DNA of 37,410 bases from Rhodospirillales bacterium (GTDB lineage Bacteria > Pseudomonadota > Alphaproteobacteria > Rhodospirillales > JANQFP01): NCBI GenBank assembly GCA_028277795.1, contig JANQFP010000152.1, forward strand, positions 1-37,410. Direction: 5' to 3'. A model generated the notes under the pieces. It was given only the letters and a program-made list of their open reading frames with translations. It was not told where the DNA came from and searched no databases. Below are positions 6,428-16,721 of this stretch, piece by piece (positions within the stretch are counted from its first letter, which is position 1; each line of letters opens with the position of its first letter). The position numbers were made by a program, and so were the translations under genes.

Positions 6428-7588
6428 ATGGCCGCGCGGTTTACCGAGCAGGGATTCCAGGACACCGTTGACACCGTTCACGCGGCGGCCATCGACGCGG
6501 CACGGTGGCCGGATGCGATGGAAGGCATCCGGGGGTTTTTCGCCGGCGCCGCCGTGGTCATCTTCTCCAGCGATGCCGGGACCTGGGACGTCCTCGACAT
6601 CATGTCGGTGGGCACGGCGGACAACGCCCTGGACGAATACCGGGCCCATTACTGGCGCGAAGACCCCAAGCTCACCTTCACCCGGCGGAACCCCGGCCTG
6701 CCGCTCTACCATGATTTCCAATGCATGACCGAGGCGGAGATGGACCGCAACGGCTTCTACCGCTGGCAGGACCGCGTCGGCGGTCTCCGCTATTGCTTCG
6801 GCGCCTCGGCCCCCATCGACCGCGACGCCGCCGGACAGTTCGCGGTCCATTGGTCGCGCAGCCACGGCCCGCCCCAGCGGGACGAGGCGGACATGTTCGT
6901 CCGCTGCGCCGCGCATGTGCAGGCGGCCATGGCTGCCAACCGGCGGCTGGCCCATCTCCCGTGGCGCGACGAGGCGGCCTGGTCGGCCCTCGACGTCCTG
7001 CCGCAGGGGCTCCTGGTCCTCGATGCCGAGCGGCGGGTGCTGGCCGCCAACCGGATGGCCGAGACCATCCTGGCCGCGGGTGACGGACTCATTGTCGACG
7101 ACGGCGTCCTGTGCGCCGCGCGGGCTGCCGAAGATCGAGAGTTGCAGCACCATCTCGGCCGGGCCGTCGGCACATCGTCCACGGTCACCCTGGCCGGCGG
7201 CGTGGTGGCCCTGCCGCGCCCGTCTGGTGCGCGACCCTACGGACTCCTGATCACGCCATTCGTCGGACCGCGTCCCCGGTTCGCCAGCCGGCAACCGGCG
7301 GTCATCGTCACGGTCACCGACCCCGAGCGCGAGGTGGAGCCGTCTGCCGACATGCTCCGGCGCCTGTTCGGGCTGACCCCTACCGAGGCGGCGCTGGCGG
7401 CGCTCCTGGCCAGCGGGCGCAGCGTCGACGAAGTGGCCGACGAACTGGCGATGGCCAAGGCCACCGCACGGGTCCACCTGCGCAGCATCTTCAAGAAGAT
7501 GCGGGTCAACAGGCAAAGCGAGCTGGTCAAGCTGGTCCTCGATTCCCCGGCCCGGACGGGCACGCCACAGGGCCGAGAGGGCGAGTGA
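6428..7588 (+). CDS. LuxR/GerE-type HTH regulator (tandem copy 1)
   Basis: Transcription regulator of 386 residues. The C-terminal 65 residues form the LuxR-type winged HTH (LTPTEAALAALLASG through VHLRSIFKKMRVNRQSELVKLVL, about 316-376). The N-terminal 190 residues look like a sensory domain not matching the acyl-homoserine-lactone type. A PAS-like segment follows (AWSALDVLPQGLLVLDAERRVLAANRMAE, about 188-220). The start ATG 6428 has GGGGGAAGG directly upstream. The signal is unknown. The stop TGA shares a base with the ATG of the next gene (TGATG), so the two copies are translated together. Confidence 0.85.
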   Translation: MAARFTEQGFQDTVDTVHAAAIDAARWPDAMEGIRGFFAGAAVVIFSSDAGTWDVLDIMSVGTADNALDEYRAHYWREDPKLTFTRRNPGLPLYHDFQCMTEAEMDRNGFYRWQDRVGGLRYCFGASAPIDRDAAGQFAVHWSRSHGPPQRDEADMFVRCAAHVQAAMAANRRLAHLPWRDEAAWSALDVLPQGLLVLDAERRVLAANRMAETILAAGDGLIVDDGVLCAARAAEDRELQHHLGRAVGTSSTVTLAGGVVALPRPSGARPYGLLITPFVGPRPRFASRQPAVIVTVTDPEREVEPSADMLRRLFGLTPTEAALAALLASGRSVDEVADELAMAKATARVHLRSIFKKMRVNRQSELVKLVLDSPARTGTPQGREGE

Positions 7589-8739
7589 TGGCGGCGCGGT
7601 TTACCGAGCAGGGATTCCAGGACACCGTCGAGATCATCCACGCGGCGGCCATCGACGCGGCCCGGTGGCCCGACGCGCTGGAGGGCATCCGCGGCTTCTT
7701 CGCCGGCACTGCCGTCGTCGCCTTCGCCTCCGAGGCCGGGACCGGGACCCTGCTCGACATCGCCTCCGTCGGCACGGCCGACGACGCCGACGACGAATAC
7801 CGGGCCCACTACTGGCGCGAGGACCCCAAGCTGGCCTTCGCTCGCACCCACCCCGGCCTGCCCCTCTACCACGACTTCCAGTGCATGACCGAGTCCGAGA
7901 TGGACCGCAACGGCTTCTACCGCTGGCAGGAGCGGGTCGGCGGTCTGCGCTATTGCTTCGGCGTCTCGGCGCCCGTCGACCGCGAGGCCTTCGGGCAGTT
8001 CGCCGTCCACTGGTCGCGCGGCCACGGCCCGCCCCAGCGGGACGAGGCGGACATGTTCATCCGCTGCGCCGCCCACGTGCAGGCCGCCATGGCCGTCAAC
8101 CGGCGGCTGGCCCATCTTGCGTGGCGCGACGAGGCGGGCTGGTCGGCCCTCGACCTGCTGCCGCGGGGCCTATTGGTGCTGGATGCGGACGGGCGGGTGC
8201 TGGCCGCCAACCGGGCCGCCGAGGCCATCCTCGCGGCGGGCGACGGGCTCACCGTCGAGGACGGCGCCCTGCGCGCCGGCCGCGCCGCCGAAGACCAGGC
8301 CCTCCAACGTCACCTCGGCCGCGCCGCCGGCGCTTCGGCCGCAGTGGCCCCGACGGGCGGAGCCCTGGCCCTGCCGCGTCCGTCCGGAGCGCGGCCCTAT
8401 GGCCTGCTGGTCACGCCGTTCGCCGGTCGGCGTCCGCGGTTCATCAGCCGACCCCCGGCCGTCATCGTCACCGTCACCGACCCCGAGCACGAGGCGGAGC
8501 CGTCGGCCGACGTGCTCCGGCGCCTGTTCGGCCTTACCCCGACCGAGGCCGAGTTGGCGGCGCGCCTGGCCACCGGACGCGGGCTCGACTCGGTGGCCGA
8601 CGAGATGGCCATCACCAAAGGGACGGCGCGGGTCCACCTGCGCAACATCTTCAAGAAGACCCGGGTCAATCGGCAAAGCGAGCTGATCAAACTGGTCCTC
8701 GATTCCCCGGCCCGGATGGGACCGACCGGCGACGCGTAG
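7588..8739 (+). CDS. LuxR/GerE-type HTH regulator (tandem copy 2)
   Basis: Paralogue of the preceding gene, 383 residues, with the same domain order: unknown sensory domain, PAS-like segment and C-terminal LuxR HTH (LTPTEAELAARLATG through VNRQSELIKLVLDSP). The first 20 nt are nearly identical to copy 1 and long nucleotide blocks match throughout, which indicates a recent duplication or gene conversion. Most substitutions lie in the sensory region (IFSSDAGTWDVLDIM against AFASEAGTGTLLDIA) while the HTH is largely conserved. This suggests different inputs acting on the same DNA site, possibly as a heterodimer; that is inference. Next downstream on the same strand is the PEP-CTERM gene, after 394 bp of regulatory sequence. 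Confidence 0.85.
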   Translation: MAARFTEQGFQDTVEIIHAAAIDAARWPDALEGIRGFFAGTAVVAFASEAGTGTLLDIASVGTADDADDEYRAHYWREDPKLAFARTHPGLPLYHDFQCMTESEMDRNGFYRWQERVGGLRYCFGVSAPVDREAFGQFAVHWSRGHGPPQRDEADMFIRCAAHVQAAMAVNRRLAHLAWRDEAGWSALDLLPRGLLVLDADGRVLAANRAAEAILAAGDGLTVEDGALRAGRAAEDQALQRHLGRAAGASAAVAPTGGALALPRPSGARPYGLLVTPFAGRRPRFISRPPAVIVTVTDPEHEAEPSADVLRRLFGLTPTEAELAARLATGRGLDSVADEMAITKGTARVHLRNIFKKTRVNRQSELIKLVLDSPARMGPTGDA

Positions 8740-8805
8740 CGGGGCCGGCGGACCGACGGCGGCAGTCCCCACAGGCCGTTGGGCGAAAAGGGACATCGTC
8801 CCGCT

Positions 8806-8839
8806 CCTACCCCATTTGAGGTAGTCGGGCTGGTTGACG
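8806..8839. repeat. Palindromic direct repeat, copy 1
   Basis: A 34-bp unit that matches copy 2 at 31 of 34 positions. Its core CTACCCCATTTGAGGTAG (8807-8824) is itself a dyad with 14 of 18 positions symmetric, as expected for a dimeric regulator. CGTTG sits 29 bp before both copies, so the duplicated segment may be longer (about 111 bp). Confidence 0.7.
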
Positions 8840-8916
8840 GCCGTCGCCTCTGATTCATCCGCGCCGACGGCGTGCGCCGCGGCAACGCGTTGATAAGAAA
8901 GAAAACGCGCCAATCC

Positions 8917-8950
8917 CCTACGCCATTTGAGGTAGTCGGGTCGGTTGACG
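8917..8950. repeat. Palindromic direct repeat, copy 2
   Basis: Second 34-bp unit, core CTACGCCATTTGAGGTAG at 8918-8935. The core centre lies about 134 bp upstream of the start expected from the sigma-54 promoter, and that of copy 1 about 245 bp upstream. These are normal distances for activator sites of sigma-54 promoters. Confidence 0.7.
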
Positions 8951-9013: not shown

Positions 9014-9026
9014 GTTGCAATGCAAC
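9014..9026. promoter_or_regulatory. Perfect 13-bp palindrome GTTGCA-A-TGCAAC
   Basis: The dyad ends 7 bp before the -24 element of the sigma-54 promoter. It could be a repressor or accessory protein site; nothing identifies the protein. Confidence 0.35.
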
Positions 9027-9033
9027 CTTTGGG

Positions 9034-9049
9034 TTGGCCCGCATATTGC
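9034..9049 (+). promoter_or_regulatory. Sigma-54 promoter (-24/-12) of the PEP-CTERM gene
   Basis: TTGGCCCGCATATTGC carries the invariant GG (9036-9037) and GC (9048-9049) exactly 10 bp apart, close to the RpoN consensus TGGCACG-N4-TTGC. Transcription would start near 9060, giving a leader of about 75 nt before ATG 9134. PEP-CTERM genes are known to be preceded by sigma-54 promoters in other species, which supports this call. Confidence 0.7.
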
Positions 9050-9133
9050 TTTCAGGGCGGTAAGAGGTTCCGGGTTCGTCCCGTCCCGCCGGATCGCCGT
9101 GCGCTCCGGCCGCACGAAACGGAGGTAATGATC

Positions 9134-10414
9134 ATGGCCGCCACGAAAGCACGCACCGTTGCCATCACCGGGGGACCGGTCTGGCCGAGCTGGGGACCGT
9201 CGGTGCGGGCCGCGGCGGCGGCCACCGCGGTCGCGGCCCTGACCGTGTTCGGGCTGCCCGAGGCCGTGGCCGCGCCCCTCGGCCACGATACGCCCCTCGA
9301 CTGGCACGGCGCTTCGTCGCAGGTGCGGGTACACGATTTCCGGCCCGAGGATCCGGCCAATCCGGAAATCGGAAGCGGCGTCACGCCGTTCGCCACCGAT
9401 GCCGAGCTGCACCCTCCCGCCCCCAATGCCGACACCGAGGTCCAGGCCTACCCCGACGTCACGCTGCCGGTGCCGGCCGTCCCGCCGGGCCTGGAAGACA
9501 CCTTCGTCGGCGGAATGAAGGCCAGGGCCGCCCCTTGGGACCTGGGGGGATTCGTCGGCACCGAGTCCATTCCGTCGCACTTCAACGACCGCGAATCCAT
9601 CGCTCCGGACGCCAACGGCAACTACTTCCCCGAGGTCGAGTTGGCCACCAACGCCTTCTTCCGGGACGAGCTGTTCTTCGAGACCGTCGACGGACAGCCG
9701 GCCAAGTTCGAGTTCGACCTAAACGTCTCGGTGACCATGGAGGTGGTCACCGGCCTCCCGGAGGACGCCTTGTTCAGCGGTGATCCGGCAGACCTGATTC
9801 CCTTCGTCAACGAGGACGGCGGCGTGAGCGGCGCCCGGTTCGAGATGGTCCTGCTGGGCCCCACGGAGAACTTCCTCGATCCCCCGAACAACATCATCCG
9901 GGAATTCTTGCGCCTGGACAGCTTCGGCTTCGAGATCCGGGAGAAGGACGACGAGGATCTGGGGGCCACAGTGCTGGAAGGCGTGCGCAAGGACGGCGAC
10001 GTCGAGACGGAAGTGCCCCTGGCTCTCGATTTCTCGTCGGACCCGGACTTCCCGTTGGACGGCGTGGTCGCCCGGATCACATTCGACGACACCATCACGC
10101 TCTCCACCGACGCCATCCTGGGCCCCGACGGCCTGGTCCGCAGCGGCACCTACCTGCCCCTGTCGCTGACCTCCTTTGGCGAGGCCGCCGATGGCCTCGT
10201 GGACTACTTCGGGTCCATCGACCTGGACGACGTCCGGGTGGTCGACGAGAACGGTATCGAGCTGGACCCGGACGACTATACCCTGCTGAGCCAGAACGAC
10301 GTCTTCGAGCCCTTCAACAACGAAGCCCCCGCTTCGGATGTCCCGGAGCCGGGCACCCTGGCATTGCTCGCGTTCGGCCTCGCCGGGCTGGGCTTCGCCC
10401 GCCGCCGGGTCTGA
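9134..10414 (+). CDS. PEP-CTERM sorting domain protein
   Basis: Exported protein of 426 residues with an N-terminal signal peptide (hydrophobic run about 26-40, probable cleavage after AVA near 47). The C-terminal PEP-CTERM signal reads VPEPGTLALL, a hydrophobic helix, then ARRRV at the very end. Such signals are processed by exosortase and route proteins to the envelope or exopolysaccharide matrix; no exosortase gene is in the window. The middle 350 residues are acidic, rich in Asp, Glu, Pro and beta-type sequence, with no domain I recognise. ATG 9134 is chosen because GGAGGT lies 7 nt upstream; ATG 9128 would be only 1 nt from it. Only 16 bp separate it from the convergent znuB. Confidence 0.88.
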   Translation: MAATKARTVAITGGPVWPSWGPSVRAAAAATAVAALTVFGLPEAVAAPLGHDTPLDWHGASSQVRVHDFRPEDPANPEIGSGVTPFATDAELHPPAPNADTEVQAYPDVTLPVPAVPPGLEDTFVGGMKARAAPWDLGGFVGTESIPSHFNDRESIAPDANGNYFPEVELATNAFFRDELFFETVDGQPAKFEFDLNVSVTMEVVTGLPEDALFSGDPADLIPFVNEDGGVSGARFEMVLLGPTENFLDPPNNIIREFLRLDSFGFEIREKDDEDLGATVLEGVRKDGDVETEVPLALDFSSDPDFPLDGVVARITFDDTITLSTDAILGPDGLVRSGTYLPLSLTSFGEAADGLVDYFGSIDLDDVRVVDENGIELDPDDYTLLSQNDVFEPFNNEAPASDVPEPGTLALLAFGLAGLGFARRRV

Positions 10415-15159: not shown

Positions 15160-16279
15160 CGCGGCGGCGGCCAAACAGCACCAGAGCGGCCAACCCGAAC
15201 ACGAAGACCGCCAAGCTGGCCGGCTCGGGGATGGCGGCGGTGGCCAGCGCGGTCTCGGCAATCTGCCCGTGCACCGCGGCGCTCGGGTGCTGCTCGTCGT
15301 AGAACGCCCGCGCGGGGCCCGTGGGGTCGCAGGGCGTGAACAGAGGATGCGAGATATCGGAAAACGGGGTGCCCGGCAGGCAGCCGGCGGCCGGCCCCGG
15401 GGTGCTGTACTCGGCATCATGGGCTGCCAATTCGTGGGCCAGGGCGTGAACGTCCGGCATGTAGAAGTTGGCCTCCGGCAGCGAGTGGTGGAGGCTCATC
15501 AGGGCGCCCAGCAGGAGAGCGTTGTGGGCGTCCGTCAGTCCGGTCATGATCCCTGCAAGTCCGGGAGGGCCCAAGGCATCCAGTTCCGCGACGAGCGGGA
15601 CCATGCCCAGGTCCGGCAGGTTGGGGATCACGAACTCGCGGGCACCGAGATCGTGGAGCTCCTCGATGGTGGCGACGATATTGCCGACCGTAACGCTCGG
15701 GTCGGGGGCCGGGACCCCGGTCGAGGGGTCGAGAACACCCAGCAGGTAGTCGTTGGCGCCGGAGTAGATCGAAAACAGGGTGGTGGACGAGGCGACGCCC
15801 GGAATCGATCCGACCGCGCTCTTGAACAAGTCCACCTGGCTCGTCGGCACGCCGCTCAGGCCGGGCAAGGGCAGTAATCCGAAGCCCGCCGGGTCGGTGA
15901 GCAGGCCGGGGACGGGTGCCGGCACCGGCCCGGGTGTGAGATTGCCGAAGGAGCTGGCGCCGCCGAAGGAGAAGTTCAGGCTGGCCGGCGGGGCCGGTGG
16001 AGGGCCGGCAAGGATCGGGGTGATCGCTGCGGCGGGCATGCTCCCGGTCAACTGGTCGATCCAGTTCGGCCCGTCGGAGAACTGCCCGGGTGCATAGACG
16101 GCCGGAGGCGGTATCGTGCCGCCGCTCAGGGCGAAGACGTTGCCGCTGTCGGACAGGCTGTCCCCGAAGGCGTAAACCGTGGTGTATGTGTTGGGCAATG
16201 CCCACGCCGGTGTGACCGGCGCCATCAGGACGCCGACGGCCATCACGGCCCCGACGATCATCGAGATCCCTCGTTTCAT
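15143..16279 (-). CDS. SGNH/GDSL esterase-like protein with PEP-CTERM signal
   Basis: Exported hydrolase of 378 residues. A signal peptide ends at AWA (27). Block [11 protein letters not shown] holds the nucleophile Ser41, block III GANDYL follows in the middle, and block V YDEQHPS has the Asp and His of the triad, so it should be an active ester or lipid hydrolase. The C terminus is a PEP-CTERM signal ([10 protein letters not shown], hydrophobic helix, GRRRV). The start is ATG 16279 after GGGGGAAATAGG. It lies opposite the COG0523 gene, with overlapping 3' ends. A sigma-54 type promoter lies 160 bp upstream. The physiological ester is unknown. Confidence 0.88.
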
Positions 16280-16721
16280 CCTATTTCCCCCTGCCTGGTG
16301 GCCGGTTCCCGTCCGACCAATGCCCGATGACGTTCCATTCATAGACGGGACGTGACCGTCCCTGAAGACCGATCTCGAGGCGCCGCGAAAAGCCTATGTC
16401 CCCGATTCCCACGGCGCCACCTGCGATCAGCGGATTTACAAGCAAAAATTGCGCCACCGTCAACGTTTCTTTGCGTGCCAAGGCGTTGGCCCAGGGGACC
16501 GGGCCATGCCGGCAGCCGAACTGTCAAGAATCCCGACGCTGGCCAGCCTTTCCGATGGTCAGGAATGACCGACTCCCGCCACCGATTCGCCATCGTGGCG
16601 CCGCCGGCGCGCCGAACGCCTAGCCAAAAACACCGCGAGTTGATCTAAAATGCCCCCTCGGGCCCCGGCGCGGCGGGCCCCTCGACGTGGCCGTGACCGA
16701 TCAGGGGACCCCGGACCCGCC
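16280..16721. other. 442-bp divergent intergenic region
   Basis: No credible gene on either strand; the short open frames here are Arg-rich and lack ribosome binding sites. It holds a sigma-54 type promoter for the esterase (minus strand). TAAAAT at 16646-16651 is a possible -10 for the response regulator (plus strand), without a clear -35. Confidence 0.5.
16442..16456 (-). promoter_or_regulatory. Sigma-54 promoter (-24/-12) of the PEP-CTERM esterase
   Basis: On the minus strand the sequence reads TGGCGCAATTTTTGC. GG and GC are exactly 10 bp apart, and the -12 flank TTTGCTT fits RpoN sites. Expected start is near 16431, leaving a leader of about 150 nt. The same promoter class precedes the other PEP-CTERM gene in this window. 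Confidence 0.6.

Follow-up and report, generated by a model that had tools for sequence, protein, structure and literature searches.

Two candidate composite sites, each a 7-2-7 dyad joined to a PrsR-type box, upstream of a sigma-54 promoter of a PEP-CTERM gene

The locus and its repeated unit

The window, that is, the whole stretch of 37,410 nt analysed here (contig JANQFP010000152.1 of the Rhodospirillales assembly GCA_028277795.1), contains a tandem pair of LuxR-type genes followed by a gene for a PEP-CTERM protein. Two copies of a 34-bp unit (8806-8839 and 8917-8950), identical at 31/34 positions and 111 bp apart from start to start, are located after the second LuxR gene, which stops at 8739, and before the PEP-CTERM gene, which starts at 9134. 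The features of the region are the following.

6428..7588, plus strand: LuxR-type regulator 1, with a weak PAS-like region and a GerE helix-turn-helix (HTH)
7585..8739, plus strand: LuxR-type regulator 2, 80% identical to regulator 1, which it overlaps
8753..8950, unstranded: a 111-bp module that may have been duplicated in tandem long ago; CCGACGGCG and CGTTG recur in register, with flank identity at lag 111
8807..8824, unstranded: distal dyad CTACCCCATTTGAGGTAG, TACCCCA-TT-TGAGGTA, 0 mismatches to TACYYM-N4-KRRGTA, the best site in the window
8823..8839, plus strand: putative distal PrsR box AGTCGGGCTGGTTGACG, 2nd of 74,788 window positions by weight matrix and in the top 4e-5 with the other-genome matrix
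8918..8935, unstranded: proximal dyad CTACGCCATTTGAGGTAG, 1 mismatch to TACYYM-N4-KRRGTA
8934..8950, plus strand: putative proximal PrsR box AGTCGGGTCGGTTGACG, separated by 84 nt from the sigma-54 element that follows it and by an interval of 111 bp from its distal counterpart
9035..9050, plus strand: sigma-54 promoter TGGCCCGCATATTGCT, with the -24 GG at 9036-9037 and the -12 GC at 9048-9049; start expected near 9061
9134..10414, plus strand: gene of a PEP-CTERM protein of 426 aa (PF07589 over the cut-off), the regulated gene

A preliminary description of this DNA had reported a 34-bp unit with an 18-bp core occurring twice with 31/34 identity, and CGTTG before each copy. Both observations are borne out: the coordinates 8777-8950 are right, and CGTTG stands 5' of both copies, in register. 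The core, CTAC[C/G]CCATTTGAGGTAG, is found at 8807-8824 and 8918-8935; with up to 3 mismatches it has no third match in the window (0.02 expected by chance) and no further copy in the 4.38-Mb genome (253 contigs), where genome-wide statements are based on pattern and family searches. Since the genome holds just two copies of the core, identity as a dispersed repeat, a case that the same description had raised, was rejected. The claim that the dyad alone was conserved proved instead to be wrong. The unit is composed of two joined sites, a dyad in its 5' half and a box in its 3' half: 17/18 dyad positions are kept between the copies, and the adjoining 16 bp on the 3' side, a second recognisable site, are kept at 14/16, two of the three differences between the copies falling in the variable N5 spacer of the box.

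As for the origin of the pair, the flank at 8740-8805 is identical to the sequence at +111 in 32/66 positions, where other positions give 19.7 +- 3.7 (p about 0.001 for lag 111); the 36 bp downstream of the unit show no match at lag 111 (12/36). These comparisons lend modest support to a tandem duplication of a 111-bp segment, and the identity of the unit (31/34) against that of its flank (32/66) was counted as a sign of selection on the unit.

PrsR-type boxes, the sigma-54 promoter and arrays of about 111 bp

The last 16 bp of the unit, GTCGGG(CT/TC)GGTTGACG, recall motif 1 of Haft 2006, described in the motif section of that paper as a 17-nt motif that ends in TTTACA, is sometimes repeated and is attributed to the activator PrsR, at a mean distance of 62.8 nt (range 32-92) from the sigma-54 motif (PMC1569441). 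The window has the same organization as the motif 1/motif 2 and PrsK-PrsR system described there: a 17-nt TTTACA-like box, then a sigma-54 element, before a PEP-CTERM gene, within a long intergenic region in which the box repeats at times, and in a genome encoding both PrsR (676 bits, family cut-off 503) and, beside it, PrsK (709 bits, cut-off 300). Unlike in that system, the TGTCGG-N5-TTTACA-like letters are matched weakly (TTGACG for TTTACA), the spacer of 84 nt is long in comparison with the mean of 62.8 nt, although within the maximum of 92, and an 18-bp dyad directly adjoins each box; a fixed period of about 111 bp is absent from the motif section of that paper (PMC1569441).

The window boxes are weak, with 9/12 conserved letters matching and 3/12 off consensus, and, when all letters are given equal weight, matches of such strength are not rare: simple arithmetic gives about 29 of them for 37 kb. 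A weight matrix places the two copies 2nd and 4th among the 74,788 window positions, the first rank being taken by the promoter of the second PEP-CTERM gene in the window. An independent matrix, trained on 173 boxes all coming from other genomes, puts the distal copy in the top 4.0e-5 and the proximal copy in the top 6.7e-5 of window positions (Markov P 1.3e-5 and 2.8e-5, respectively). Furthermore, GTCGG-N5-TTTACA-like boxes precede the sigma-54 elements of 7 other PEP-CTERM promoters of this genome (e.g. GTCGGAAATCTTTACA, GTCGGCCGCCTTTACA and GTCGGCATTTTTGACA), and the pattern of a box followed after 55-85 nt by a sigma-54 element has 7 matches in this genome, window site included, and 27 in the relative G113; the reversed pattern, used as a control, gave 0 matches in both. 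The two window copies are very probably PrsR boxes. A canonical PrsR box with its sigma-54 promoter is also present on the minus strand of the window (16442-16537), before the second PEP-CTERM gene, which lies on the same strand and has its C-terminal motif at 15161-15235.

With the promoter at 9035-9050 and transcription expected to start near 9061, the dyads are centred at about -134 and -245, the distances originally given. The spacer between box and sigma-54 element was surveyed in a collection of 84,980 species (at least 81 promoters; a larger collected set agrees). Among the matches listed for Proteobacteria (loci L170-L249) it falls into three peaks, 60-65, 72-78 and 83-85 nt (also delimited as 60-65, 72-76 and 83-87 nt), which are stepped by about one helical turn and therefore argue for a face-of-helix constraint; the 84 nt of the window are within the third peak. 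A further palindrome, GTTGCAATGCAAC, occupies positions 9014-9026, 8 bp upstream of the -24 element, and is possibly another operator.

The distance between the two boxes also recurs elsewhere. In G113, 25/26 promoters have a second box at 102-114 bp and 22/26 a third one at 209-223 bp, to which have to be added a single box outside these distances and a single one in opposite orientation; in this relative, most sigma-54 promoters of PEP-CTERM type are preceded by three-box arrays whose period is about 111 bp (loci L129-L156, e.g. L132, L142 and L156). In other genomes of the order a second box at 103-113 bp is found in 5/18 promoters, and contig C245 of the genome under study has one at 109 bp. 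Altogether, 38 arrays were collected by searching distances of 95-130 bp, 30 of them at 109-114, 4 at 102-104 and 3 at 122-123 bp, counts that are not independent events as many array promoters come from one genome. The window pair, with its second box 111 bp upstream, falls in the range of these arrays (about 102-123 bp). Repeated boxes are less frequent in the broad set (6 at 111-123 bp, namely 111-112 and 122-123, and 11 at 127-197 bp), and outside Alphaproteobacteria they are less regularly spaced. A strict array pattern searched phylum-wide matched this genome only, a scarcity probably explained by most sampled genomes having no PEP-CTERM/PrsR system.

About 111 bp is the usual period of PrsR arrays in this order, and no paper reporting it was found in the open-access literature. 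The sequence around paired boxes is no more alike within promoters than between promoters, and the interval is therefore not explained by recent duplication. A tandem duplication of about 111 bp in the window, as initially suggested, remains compatible with the flank identity but is not required for the interval, since the latter recurs between PrsR boxes in promoters with unlike flanks.

Sites of sigma-54 activators are usually described as spaced by tens of bases or loosely, and we know of no structural ruler, such as a regular looping or wrapping of enhancer DNA, for other sigma-54 activators. The PrsR array has instead a general architecture, in which two to three boxes stand at intervals of about 111 bp and the near box is phase-locked to the sigma-54 promoter by helical turns. 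A fixed interval kept over hundreds of base pairs calls for a structural cause. The 111 bp correspond to 10.6 helical turns, a value that was counted against the model. This array is a more general result than the composite site of the window; for the latter, the repeat has been identified and one promoter tied to the well-defined PrsR/PEP-CTERM regulon.

The dyad and its candidate binder

The 5' half of the unit is arranged as a 7-2-7 inverted repeat, TACCCCATTTGAGGTA. Sites of this form, two inverted heptamers with 2 bp between them, are typical of NarL-type response regulators; the half-sites of the dyad are TACCCCA and TACCTCA, and its left half equals the TACCCC of an engineered NarL site, TACCCCTAAAGGGGTA (PMC4549865). 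Unlike NarL-type sites, the dyad adjoins the box of a sigma-54 activator. Scored against TACYYM-N4-KRRGTA, the two dyads rank above all other window sites (Markov expectation 0.000 with 0 mismatches and 0.5 with up to 1), and their outer 12 positions fit a 7-2-7 site. The heptamer consensus used for the scoring is TACYYM, with a seventh base that is T in NarL heptamers; this position was left free in the test and was found to be A instead. Palindromy alone is modestly unusual (at least 7/9 pairs, P 1.3e-3 per position). No conserved 5' element was detected in about 170 other collected box promoters, the information profile being about 0 upstream of -1, and the symmetric dyad with up to 2 mismatches occurs in four further places of the genome, fewer than the control. 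From its form, the dyad is a candidate operator for a regulator of the LuxR/NarL family (GerE domain).

On circumstantial grounds, the best candidate for its binder is the adjacent tandem LuxR/GerE pair. When aligned to the DNA-bound NarL domain (1je8), the recognition helix of regulator 1 (aTARVHLRsifKKM) resembles that of NarL (sTVKVHVKhmlKKM), and Lys-Val-x-x-Lys of NarL is aligned to Arg-Val-x-x-Arg in the pair; those residues are said to have been found by Maris et al. 2002 to contact bases in NarL. The two proteins differ from NarL in their weak PAS-like region and in having no receiver-domain match. They are GerE-domain regulators in a PEP-CTERM context like EpsA (TIGR03020), a LuxR-type regulator tied to XrtB/PEP-CTERM systems; membership in that family was rejected, with 17.8 bits for regulator 1 and 14.2 for regulator 2 (cut-off 170), the match being confined to the HTH. 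No dyad site was found upstream of the gene of regulator 1 itself, and LuxR relatives in G006, G049, G113 and G012 are in no case beside PEP-CTERM genes. No close relative of the pair was found in the GTDB collection and no orthologs of the PEP-CTERM protein were found, its matches elsewhere being almost confined to the C-terminal sorting motif, and phylogenetic footprinting was thus impossible.

A proposed composite enhancer, its alternatives and related loci

The explanation that we favour, and which as a whole we regard as moderately probable, is that two composite modules, each a PrsR box with a 7-2-7 LuxR-type site, form the enhancer of the sigma-54-dependent PEP-CTERM gene. Each module would consist of an inverted repeat for a dimer of LuxR/NarL type (GerE domain), followed directly by a PrsR box. 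PrsR, phosphorylated by PrsK, would bind both boxes, arranged with the array period of about 111 bp and with a spacer of 84 nt that gives the near box an allowed helical phase, and would contact the sigma-54 RNA polymerase through DNA looping, leading to expression of the PEP-CTERM gene. The LuxR pair would probably bind the adjoining dyads and either aid PrsR on its weak boxes or block it. Computed support covers the box with its spacer and array period, the presence of PrsR and PrsK in the genome, and a dyad that is unique and of 7-2-7 form. The occupancy by PrsR, the identity of the dyad binder and the sign of its effect are inferred. If the model is true, the joined site would add to the PEP-CTERM regulon a second input that is specific to this one gene; we know of no report of a LuxR-type input of this kind. 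Much more tentatively, and with doubts prevailing, a LuxR-type dimer and PrsR might sit side by side on each module, in repeats of about 111 bp implying a structural ruler.

The preliminary description had read the repeat as sites for protein binding that precede a sigma-54 promoter of a PEP-CTERM gene, and the presence of a PrsR-type box and of a 7-2-7 site supports this reading. It had also offered a sigma-54 activator or the LuxR pair as the binder; each of them fits, but they do not appear to be alternatives, the sequence suiting both at once.

The unit might be nothing else than a duplicated PrsR-box module, in which the dyad is a passenger or an extended contact of PrsR and a second regulator has no part. 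The similarity of the flanks at lag 111 (32/66, p about 0.001) and a period that suits PrsR arrays agree with this, and palindromy alone is weak evidence for a further operator; however, 17/18 dyad positions have been kept while the flanks diverged to 48%, none of the approximately 170 other box promoters has a conserved 5' element, and the outer 12 dyad positions fit the 7-2-7 form, so we consider such a module rather improbable. It is unlikely, too, that the binder of the dyad is a different response regulator with a GerE domain, NarL-like or another two-component regulator encoded elsewhere, rather than the neighbouring pair: the genome has many receiver-domain proteins and NarL-type response regulators typically use sites of 7-2-7 form (PMC4549865), but the LuxR genes directly adjoin the dyads, and the genome has no other good copy of the core, which favours a dedicated local regulator over a global one. 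The idea that the element closes the LuxR operon as an RNA hairpin, terminator or attenuator was rejected as very improbable. A 5-bp stem is possible in the 18-mer taken alone (-4.5 kcal/mol, z -3.2), yet in their context the copies fold differently and no better than shuffled sequences (z -0.4 and -0.8), neither is followed by a T-run, and the predicted loop is conserved in sequence.

Beside the composite enhancer proposed for the window, a third LuxR relative of this genome (contig C105, 37% identical) lies upstream of PEP-CTERM genes that have a sigma-54 promoter. In this locus (L094:2178-2373) two box-like sites stand 102 bp apart; the near one is degenerate, lies 62 nt before a perfect sigma-54 element and has on its 5' side a dyad, GGTACGTTTGTACC, centred 8.5 bp before it, an offset that matches that of the window dyad. 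The recognition helix of the C105 regulator differs (TARNALQ), as does its dyad; identity with the window dyad was rejected because the sequences differ, and the locus is kept as a weak parallel. Near the end of the same contig, short repeats rich in AATTCCGG are found (L094:4195-4290). Finally, in an alphaproteobacterial MAG (L226:4443-5549), a LuxR-type gene of this kind is directly preceded by a sigma-54 element and by PrsR boxes inverted back to back, an arrangement suggesting that in another alphaproteobacterium a LuxR regulator itself is part of the PrsR regulon.
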